The notes below the pieces were generated by a model. That model saw only the letters and a list, made by a program, of their open reading frames with translations, was not told the DNA's origin and did not search any database. Position numbers and translations under genes: made by a program. Positions 12,625 to 40,155 of a stretch of 64,000 bases of DNA are shown here, piece after piece. This stretch comes from Rhodobacteraceae bacterium MED-G08. Lineage in GTDB: Bacteria > Pseudomonadota > Alphaproteobacteria > Rhodobacterales > Rhodobacteraceae. How positions within the stretch are numbered: the stretch's first letter is position 1; each line of letters begins with the position of its first letter. The stretch lies in NCBI GenBank assembly GCA_002457055.1, contig NTKT01000012.1, positions 1-64,000 on the forward strand, in the 5' to 3' direction.

Positions 12625-13515
12625 GTGTCATTACGGCGTATTATCAAAAATTTCGGGTTTAAGGATTTTGTACAGATGGGGGTTGCCGCAGCGACCTCGA
12701 GAAAGATGGCAAAGCCAGTAGTTCCTAGGAATGAAGCACTACGGCGAGTTAAGGTGGCAGAGACTGGTATTATCGGTCAAGATCTTTCTAGCCAGTTTGA
12801 AATATTTGGGGAAATGGTTAAGCTCGTCACTGGTGCAGATTTCAGTATGGTCAATATTCTTGACGGTAAGAACCAGTTTACGGTGGGTGGTTGTGGTATA
12901 CCGGTAGATCCTTTAATGGCTATGCCTCAAGATATCTCAATTTGCCAATACGCATTAGCGTCCCCAGAACCATTTATCATTGCCGACCTTTCTGAGGATG
13001 AACGGTTTGCGGGAATTATGATGACCAAGCCGCCAATGAATGTCTCGGCATATGCTGGCTTTCCTCTGAATACGACAGAGGGCGTTGTTCTAGGCACTTT
13101 ATGCGCTTTTCATAAGCGTCCAATCCGATTAAATCCTGAGCAGGTGCGAATGATGCGCCAGCTCGCTAAGGCAACTACAGACCAAATACTTCTTCGAACC
13201 CAAAAAGCCAACTTATACGCATCAGAGATTGGGGCTTTGCTTGGACGGTTTGTCCGTTTTGCCCCAGATGGTACAATTTCTGAGCTTATTGGCTTCCTTG
13301 ATTTTTGCGCTCATGGGGCTGCACTACCAGAGGTAATTATCGCCTTGGAGAAAGATGGAATAATTACACAAATTGATGGGAACTGGATGCTAACTCAAGA
13401 TGGTGTCGACCTAAAAGCAGAATTAGGACTTGCTGAAGATGGCTATCGAGGCGCTCAAGTAAATGTCCCTTCCGTTGGTAGCCAACTGGAAGATCTGCTT
13501 GAGAAAATGGAGTAG
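12625..13515 (+). CDS. GAF-domain protein, cassette 1
   Basis: 296 aa, GTG start after ACGGAGC. Residues about 45-195 form a GAF domain ('SSQFEIFGEMVKLVTGADFSMVNILD', 'ISICQYALASPEPFIIADLSED', 'YAGFPLNTTEGVVLGTLCAFHKRPIRL'). GAF domains of this short-signal type bind small ligands or chromophores. Residues about 205-290 ('IGFLDFCAHGAALPEVIIALEKDGIITQIDGNWMLTQDG') look like a compact helical, possibly winged-helix, domain. Gene order GAF then ~107-aa partner is repeated at 40155-39025 with clear homology of both genes. No output enzyme is present, so it probably works through a partner. Function unknown. Confidence 0.75.
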   Translation: MSLRRIIKNFGFKDFVQMGVAAATSRKMAKPVVPRNEALRRVKVAETGIIGQDLSSQFEIFGEMVKLVTGADFSMVNILDGKNQFTVGGCGIPVDPLMAMPQDISICQYALASPEPFIIADLSEDERFAGIMMTKPPMNVSAYAGFPLNTTEGVVLGTLCAFHKRPIRLNPEQVRMMRQLAKATTDQILLRTQKANLYASEIGALLGRFVRFAPDGTISELIGFLDFCAHGAALPEVIIALEKDGIITQIDGNWMLTQDGVDLKAELGLAEDGYRGAQVNVPSVGSQLEDLLEKME

Positions 13516-13521
13516 TTTGCA

Positions 13522-13848
13522 ATGTACTCTTCGCAACTGCAGTTGAAATTTAGTAACGTTTCTGAGGCCAAAATAGCTGCCCAAAGTTTATGTGAACTTT
13601 TGAAAAGTCGCATATCTGTATTTGATTTTCATGGTTTGCAAGTGACCGTTGGGAAAGATGGTGATCTTTCGATTAGTGTCAGGTTTCAGGATGTTAAAGC
13701 CATGAATGATTTTGAAAAAGATATTCCAAAGATTATAGAAGATATAAAACAGGCTTTTTTATTCAAAATGACAAAATTTACAGGCGTTTGTGTATTTTCT
13801 TTTGAGCGTGAAGCAATGTCTTCATCAATCTCAATTGATGCGAAGTAG
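13522..13848 (+). CDS. Small partner protein of GAF cassette 1
   Basis: 108 aa, six bases after the GAF gene. The paralogue at 39025-39345 shares 'KF-N---AKIAA', 'L--T-GK---LSI---F', 'FEK' and 'F-F----F-GV--F--E-EA', roughly a third of positions. The predicted layout is strand-helix-strand-strand-helix-strand, ferredoxin-like. I know of no named family. Invariable linkage to a GAF protein suggests a complex or an antagonist pair. Its last codons overlap the next gene by 11 bases. Confidence 0.7.
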   Translation: MYSSQLQLKFSNVSEAKIAAQSLCELLKSRISVFDFHGLQVTVGKDGDLSISVRFQDVKAMNDFEKDIPKIIEDIKQAFLFKMTKFTGVCVFSFEREAMSSSISIDAK

Positions 13849-14017
13849 AACCAAAGAGTGCCATATCTGTGAAGTTCAGGAGGATGCTTTGTACCGCTGT
13901 AGATACGATGGTGCGAAAGAATGGTCGTTCTTGTGTGGTAAGTGCGTCACGGAAATTAAGGCTGAGCACGAAAAGACTTATCAGTATGGTGGCACATGGA
14001 AGCGTAAAAAGCGGTAA
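13838..14017 (+). CDS. Small zinc-finger-like protein
   Basis: 59 aa starting at the ATG at 13838, inside the end of the previous gene, so translation is probably coupled. Cysteines are arranged C-x2-C ('CHICEVQE'), then 'YRCRYD' and C-x2-C ('LCGKCVTE'), a treble-clef or zinc-ribbon type layout, followed by a basic tail 'WKRKKR'. It could bind nucleic acid or act as an adaptor. Cassette 2 near 39 kb has no such gene. Family not recognised. Confidence 0.6.
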   Translation: MRSRTKECHICEVQEDALYRCRYDGAKEWSFLCGKCVTEIKAEHEKTYQYGGTWKRKKR

Positions 14018-38756: not shown

Positions 38757-38990
38757 ATGTTTAAAAAAATATTAAAAACAATAATGTTGGCACAGGCTGC
38801 AAGTGCAGCAAGAAAGACGTTACGTTATCTTTCGGACCGCGATCTGAACGATATGGGATTATCTCGGTCAACATTTGTTGATGGCGTAGTTGAAAGTGTG
38901 AAAGCTGACATTGAAGCAAATGTTAAAGATCAACCAATTTCAAAAAACATAAAATGTGTTGTTAACCCAAATTTACTTGGTGCAGTATAG
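38757..38990 (+). CDS. DUF1127 small protein
   Basis: 77 aa. 'AARKTLRYLSDRDLNDMGLSRSTFVDGV' is the DUF1127 motif (R-L-S-D-R-x-L-x-D-x-G-L-x-R). Proteins of this family are small, basic and stress- or growth-phase-linked in alphaproteobacteria. Some are proposed to bind RNA or other proteins, and a detailed function is not settled. Ribosome site CGGAG precedes ATG. Monocistronic, divergent from the PotD-type gene. Confidence 0.85.
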   Translation: MFKKILKTIMLAQAASAARKTLRYLSDRDLNDMGLSRSTFVDGVVESVKADIEANVKDQPISKNIKCVVNPNLLGAV

Positions 38991-39345: not shown

Positions 39346-40155
39346 TTACAATTCTCCCAATAGTTCATCAAGAAACGTGGGCTTGTTCTGGGTTTTGATT
39401 ATAGATTTTTTCATTACTTTGGGCTGAAGTTTCATTTTCCTTTGAAGAGATTTTCCAGCCTCGCTCAAAACCATTTCACTGTTTTCATATTTAGCTAAAT
39501 CCAAATCAACTAATTTTGAGAAAGAAAGCTCTGAGATGGGTTTTCCTGAGCAAAGAGATAAAAAATCATTAAGGTCTGAAGTATCTGCTGAGTTTGTCGC
39601 AGTCCTAAAAGATTTCAATGCCGTTTGAACAGTCTCTGCAGTAATTTCTTTTTGCTCAGTTTGAGTATCGATCTGGTGAGCTATTCTTTCACACATGCCT
39701 TTAACGAGCGTGATCTGCTTATCGTTTAGTGCTAATGGTTGTCTGTTTAATAAACAAAAAGTACCAAGAGCATAATTGTCTTTATTTATGACTGGAAAGC
39801 CAGCGTATCCGAGCCATCTATCCTCATTTTGTAGAGATGGGTGAGATTTCCATTTTTCATGTTTTGTCAGATCGGGTATCAGTGTGGGCTCAGAGCTCAA
39901 GAGGACATATGAGCAAATGTTGTATTCGTGACGCTCACTTTTATCGCCACTCACCCCATCTGTACTAGCTATTCCGCACTGATAGTTCTCGTCAAAAAGA
40001 CTAAACGAGACGTAATCAAATCCTGTAAGTTCTTTTGCCATCTCGCAAAATATAGAGAAATTATCAGCTTGTTTACCGTCAATAATTCCAGTGCGTTTGA
40101 CTGCGACTACTCGTCTTTCCTCATTTTGGGGTCTTGGTGCTAATGCGGTAGACAT
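39346..40155 (-). CDS. GAF-domain protein, cassette 2
   Basis: 269 aa, homologous to the product of 12625-13515. GAF domain about 20-170: 'VKRTGIIDGKQADNFSIFCEMAKELTGFDYVSFSLFDE', 'NICSYVLLSSEPTLIPDLTKHEKW', 'WLGYAGFPVINKDNYALGTFCLLNRQPLAL'. C-terminal 90 residues have a short helical domain ('LNDFLSLCSGKPISELSFSKLVDLDLAKYENSEMVLSEAG') like the partner's C-terminus. Conserved Cys at 'NICSY' (and 'SICQY' in cassette 1) could hold a ligand or chromophore; speculative. Monocistronic pair with 39025-39345. Confidence 0.75.
   Translation of the reverse strand: MSTALAPRPQNEERRVVAVKRTGIIDGKQADNFSIFCEMAKELTGFDYVSFSLFDENYQCGIASTDGVSGDKSERHEYNICSYVLLSSEPTLIPDLTKHEKWKSHPSLQNEDRWLGYAGFPVINKDNYALGTFCLLNRQPLALNDKQITLVKGMCERIAHQIDTQTEQKEITAETVQTALKSFRTATNSADTSDLNDFLSLCSGKPISELSFSKLVDLDLAKYENSEMVLSEAGKSLQRKMKLQPKVMKKSIIKTQNKPTFLDELLGEL

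Follow-up and report, generated by a model that had tools for sequence, protein, structure and literature searches.

The window analyzed here, the 64,000-nucleotide stretch at the start of contig NTKT01000012.1 of Rhodobacteraceae bacterium MED-G08, harbors two gene pairs, each consisting of a GAF-domain protein gene followed by the gene of a small partner protein (Table 1). The two pairs lie ~25 kb apart in opposite orientations, and the intergenic gap is 6 bp between GAF1 and partner1 and 0 bp between GAF2 and partner2. An earlier sequence-only reading had taken both genes of one pair to be homologous to those of the other, in the same order and nearly touching, and this holds: GAF1 and GAF2 share 27% identity (E 4e-30), and partner1 and partner2 are 32% identical in a gapless alignment of 105 columns (E 3e-21). 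With partner1 as query, only the partner1 and partner2 genes are found in the window's own genome, which is 86.6% complete. Most substitutions that separate GAF1 and partner1 from their orthologues at loci L004 and L009 are silent (dN/dS about 0.09–0.14), and both genes are under purifying selection. Other genes in the neighborhood of copy 2 include a DUF1127 protein gene that adjoins it and is convergent with it (38757–38990, plus strand) and a short protein that consists of a BLUF blue-light sensor domain alone (PF04940; 42069–42491, minus strand).

Table 1. Features of the two GAF–partner gene pairs, in window coordinates
Feature	Position	Strand	Remarks
GAF1 gene (copy 1 sensor), 296 aa, GTG start	12625..13515	+	xSLRR start kept in aligned orthologues
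Predicted N-terminal helices of GAF1	12631..12696	+	kept in copy-1 lineage, absent from copy 2
GAF domain of GAF1, residues 58–182	12796..13170	+	PF01590 E 2.6e-12; PDB 4zmu E 1.6e-13; Foldseek
Winged-helix-like C-terminal region of GAF1, ~residues 199–268	13219..13428	+	predicted H-H-H-strand-strand-H
C-terminal helix motif LEDLLEKM of GAF1	13486..13509	+	
partner1 gene, 108 aa	13522..13848	+	unnamed family, predicted ferredoxin-like fold
Short CxxC...CxxC zinc-finger-like ORF	13835..14017	+	overlaps partner1 stop
partner2 gene, 106 aa	39025..39345	-	
GAF2 gene (copy 2 sensor), 269 aa	39346..40155	-	
C-terminal helix motif LDELLGEL of GAF2	39349..39372	-	

Copy 1 had further been described as having gained a coupled zinc-finger-like gene. 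The ORF is indeed present and overlaps the partner gene, but it does not belong to the conserved unit, since it occurs in only two of the eight close loci L003–L010 (L003 and L004) and is absent from L005–L010. The ATG that overlaps the partner stop is ATA in L004, which does retain the TTG of the preceding codon; over 55 codons the comparison of the ORF with L004 gives a dN of 0.03 and a dS of 0.22. Given that this ORF is local to the nearest relatives and that L004 lacks its ATG, we rejected it as a part of the module. Downstream of it lies a gene for an ATPase inhibitor subunit zeta (PF07345; 14121–14429, plus strand).

The partner, as the sequence-only reading had suspected, is a protein without a known family: Pfam, NCBIfam, and PADLOC give no match, PHROGs returns nothing better than E 0.08, and a sequence search for relatives of solved structure yields none that is credible (best E 0.31). 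It is predicted to adopt a beta-alpha-beta-beta-alpha-beta, ferredoxin-like fold (mean pLDDT 74.8). The best natural matches in Foldseek are dimeric ferredoxin-like and antibiotic-biosynthesis-monooxygenase-like proteins (TM up to 0.67), with E 1.7e-4 to 1.4e-2 among the 50 matches listed; these raise the prospect that the partner is a small enzyme or a ligand-binding dimeric ferredoxin-like protein that is merely controlled by the GAF protein. De novo designs, however, score equally well, so that Foldseek reports the fold class of the partner rather than its kinship, and the dimeric ferredoxin-like proteins of this class (such as PDB 2op5 and 2od6) have no sequence match to it. Moreover, the two partner alignments contain no His or Tyr that is fully or almost fully conserved, and we regard the enzyme or ligand-binding role as improbable.

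The GAF domains themselves are clear, with PF01590 scores of 47.9 bits for GAF1 and 40.9 bits for GAF2 (Pfam cut-off 22.4), and GAF-containing proteins are the best Foldseek matches to an AlphaFold2 model of moderate confidence. This model predicts N-terminal helices, the GAF domain, a long helix, a winged-helix-like region, and a low-confidence linker. In PHROGs, the GAF proteins match phrog_14602 (function not assigned; E 1.3e-20 and 3.4e-14). They have the GAF fold in common with diguanylate cyclases and sensor kinases (PDB 4zmu and 3hcy), and the likeness to 4zmu extends to a Cys at the IC/FC position and a GTLC stretch; unlike these proteins, they carry a C-terminal region and tail of their own, and the gene for a small partner adjoins theirs. 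Of the 69 GAF proteins, 68 retain C107 and all retain C160. A conserved Cys in SICQY/NICSY had been singled out as possibly important, and we dropped it as a special marker because the GAF domain of the diguanylate cyclase 4zmu has Cys at both positions and the residue is ordinary for this GAF type. A Pfam scan of the GAF proteins revealed no kinase, cyclase, or phosphodiesterase domain, and in GAF1 and GAF2 no CheZ or FliM domain either (CheZ at E up to 1). The claim that the proteins have no output domain is nonetheless too strong, as it overlooked the winged-helix-like region and the C-terminal helix motif.

The winged-helix-like region invites the reading that the GAF protein is a transcription regulator that binds DNA by this region, with the partner as co-regulator. 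Its predicted order of elements fits a winged helix, and a profile of the C-terminal region finds weak matches to Sso10a (E 0.009), CggR (0.17), CtsR (0.56), and MotA (0.95), with a SorC-family protein also within the range of E 0.17–1.5; the strongest profile match, however, is ribosomal eS19 (E 6.8e-4), and other weak matches include calmodulin, for example. The matched chains of eS19, Sso10a, CggR, CtsR, and MotA are of the winged-helix type. Among 19 members scanned with Pfam, the top HTH-type matches have E 0.0044–0.053, each in one or two members. The region is also acidic, with a mean net charge of -2.4 (range -10 to +4) over 69 proteins, and DNA binding is therefore not favored; we consider such a regulator quite unlikely.

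The extreme C terminus of the GAF proteins ends in a short helix with the approximate pattern hydrophobic, acidic, x, L/M, L/F, x, x, L/M. Of the 69 GAF proteins, 68 have this motif within their last 16 residues, compared with one of 386 background ORFs, these being other mechanically called ORFs of 250 codons or more at the same loci, many of which are probably not genes. The pattern was taken from the same alignment on which it was counted, and the contrast is therefore descriptive. It is present in 15 of the 16 cluster representatives described below, and L022 keeps the gene pair with the motif missing.

To place the two pairs in the context of other genomes, we collected 153 loci, in which 150 partner hits correspond to 83 distinct sequences. 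A GAF gene lies directly upstream on the same strand, with a gap of -1 to 12 bp, for 69 of these 83; together with two contig-edge rows, the 69 form 16 clusters at 60% identity, and the genes that flank the pair vary between distant loci. The 14 partners without a directly upstream GAF gene comprise nine that are found in chemotaxis gene clusters (Che-type, see below), two orphans with GAF nowhere nearby (L037/L050 and L043/L051), and three explained by a contig end (L010 and L128) or a deletion (L036/L063). Co-occurrence thus stands for 69 of the 83 and fails for the 11 Che-type and orphan partners that have no adjacent GAF gene, so that partners free of GAF genes, which the sequence-only reading had named as evidence against itself, do exist in part. 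In the reverse direction, profile A4, which covers the GAF C-terminal region, was run against 198 family genomes at E 0.001 and gave 10 hits in seven genomes, each beside a partner, with no further copy at that threshold; this test is weak because all 10 hits are sequences of the profile itself. In the deletion case (L036/L063, G377:C1), one short in-frame ORF fuses part of the GAF gene to the back of the partner gene. Neighboring GAF–partner pairs occur in two genomes, one with two pairs in tandem and the other with two pairs back to back (loci L137, G1084:C155, and L149, G924:C68); three partner matches were obtained in G924.

Overall, the family has a patchy distribution, with two marine groups in which it is common. 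A contig scan with partner1 gave 16 loci, of which six are labeled Rhodobacteraceae, six SAR116, and four otherwise (Glaciecola, Flavobacteriaceae, Porticoccaceae, and Gammaproteobacteria; L003, L010, L011, and L012); the latter labels are probably binning errors, given that the L003 partner is 100% identical to that of the window. A GAF gene is directly upstream in 15 of the 16, the exception being L010, where the partner stands alone and starts 171 bases from the contig end. In overlapping genome samples, profile A1 matches six of 289 class genomes and 14 of 198 family genomes, and profile A3 matches six of 385 class genomes, 17 of 394 family genomes, and one of 299 in the phylum sample, the window genome itself; each A1 tally and the A3 class tally includes one row judged spurious (G155 and G350, E 0.004; G136, E 8.9e-4 with internal stops). 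The same profile matches 34 of the 61 genomes of the SAR116-type family to which G109 belongs and 14 of the 16 genomes of the window's genus, although the protein has no family name. We rejected carriage as phage cargo, as no partner relative is found in viral contigs with the partners P0002 and P0004 as queries or in phage records with P0002, and as plasmid cargo, as none is found in plasmids for two other partner sequences; GAF2 meets only the GAF domains of other proteins among the plasmid matches listed, with identity below 60% in all 82 records. A search for anti-phage defense systems gave no PADLOC match for five proteins at E up to 0.1.

A partner tree of 82 rows, from which the L036/L063 deletion sequence was omitted and for which the X in the L071 row was deleted beforehand, places copy 1 among SAR116 orthologues (support 99/97) and copy 2 in a separate clade (100/100) with members of the genus and one SAR116-type row, the genome behind which is listed as 7% contaminated. 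The two copies are therefore old paralogues, and a recent local duplication is rejected; the cassette termed duplicated is paralogous in both of its genes, without being the product of recent copying. Three types of partner occur among genus members, in varying combinations. Transfer of these old pairs between marine lineages is possible. The partner is a short protein with few alignment columns, and with long branches meeting, the deep joins of this tree are unsure.

The Che-type partners fall on one side of a single branch (96/77; 96% of bootstrap trees). In all nine, a CheA4-like gene follows directly downstream on the same strand within a chemotaxis cluster. In L046, the CheA-like protein combines H-kinase_dim, HATPase, and CheW domains and lacks an Hpt domain, and the other eight are 67–79% identical to it. 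The L046 cluster further encodes CheR, CheB, and a soluble receptor; on the other side lies a sigma-54 activator, past which are genes read by eye as fliE and fliF. Clusters of this kind, in which the Che-type partner gene immediately precedes a cheA4-like gene, are similar to the cytoplasmic chemotaxis operon cheOp3 of Rhodobacter sphaeroides. The accessible portions of two reports describe in cheOp3 the CheA4 kinase, CheA3, TlpT, PpfA, and CheY6 (PMC6829392, PMC2829493). They differ from the present case in that those portions name no small partner and in that the window pairs lie outside any chemotaxis cluster.

Two partner residues distinguish the Che-type proteins from the GAF-linked ones, as judged from the cluster representatives (the L036/L063 deletion sequence again omitted). 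At E97, all 16 GAF-linked representatives keep the Glu, and each of the nine Che-type partners has N, S, or G instead; at K17, 15 of those 16 have Lys, and all nine Che-type partners have Gln. Because the Che-type partners make up one clade, both changes may reflect a single event. The two orphan partners are mixed, with E97 kept in one and K17 in the other.

The pair is a real, conserved, and apparently unstudied two-gene unit; in our literature search, we recognized no paper that deals with it. That the two genes are kept together in many marine bacteria makes it probably one sensing unit, and we infer, with a probability of roughly 0.47, that the GAF protein and its partner form a two-protein module and bind each other directly, probably via the GAF tail. 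In such a module, a cytoplasmic GAF protein would sense a small ligand or redox state, as its fold suggests, and the signal would be relayed via the winged-helix-like region to the amphipathic helix at the C terminus. The ferredoxin-like protein encoded by the next gene would be the working partner of the GAF protein, likely contacted by the tail, and the output would be the freed or bound partner.

A predicted interface between the two proteins had been named as evidence that would support the module. As the GAF and partner genes are in frame, they can be folded as a single read-through chain, with the stop read as Gly, using an alignment of only 14 sequences (window copy 1 plus 13 rows, namely copy 2 and 12 loci). 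This prediction contains no confident GAF–partner interface: the chain has a mean pLDDT of 67.0, the tail blocks reach 32 and 35, and the partner blocks reach 30–66 compared with 50–86 for the partner alone. The modeled chain neither shows nor excludes binding. Of the two-protein sensing module proposed at the outset, the conserved linkage is thus borne out, and the predicted interface is not, nor is the strict dependence of the partner on a GAF gene. The two genes could also form a conserved operon of one pathway whose products make no physical contact, since linkage does not prove contact and no interface is predicted; that the linkage persists in 16 clusters amid changing neighbors and that partner residues are changed where GAF is absent both argue against this, and we consider it unlikely.

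A different target for the tail is suggested by chemotaxis. The CheZ C terminus and the FliM N terminus bind CheY, and the GAF tail resembles these docking helices in being a short chain-end helix of the loose form hydrophobic-D/E-x-L-L-x-x-L. By eye, the same pattern is found at the C terminus of E. coli K-12 CheZ and at the N terminus of FliM in all six genus genomes read. The conserved C-terminal region of CheZ is marked as involved in CheY binding in the accessible part of one report (PMC7750401). The GAF tail might accordingly act as a peptide that docks onto a CheY-type receiver in the manner of CheZ or FliM, so that a response regulator is tuned and the partner modulates this interaction, and the Che-type paralogues before cheA4-like genes would fit such a role. 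Short helix motifs, however, arise easily, and the window genome, at 86.6% completeness, shows no match to CheW and no stand-alone CheY; five of its six receiver hits read as multi-domain regulators, and the sixth, unread, lies in a 231-codon frame. The lack of a visible stand-alone CheY in this incomplete genome favors another tail target there, and we judge docking to a CheY-type receiver unlikely.

We rejected FliM as a required target, as genus members that lack a FliM match, among them the window genome and G451 (the latter 96% complete), do have the partner. FliM is matched in eight of the 16 genus genomes and does not track partner presence, G1104 having FliM without a partner match, in a comparison that partial genomes weaken. 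It is conceivable, if quite unlikely, that the partner itself replaces CheY as the receiver of FliM/CheZ-like helices, with one branch held by the GAF tail and released by the signal, and another recruited beside CheA4. An unnamed partner, a docking-like tail, and a sister clade in chemotaxis operons together build a concrete case, open to testing, for a two-protein signal relay of a new kind. Finally, in a relative within the genus (G1101), the 33.6-kb contig that carries L178–L179 (C20) harbors flagellar genes, with no che gene recognized by eye, and the FliM of this genome keeps the N-terminal motif.
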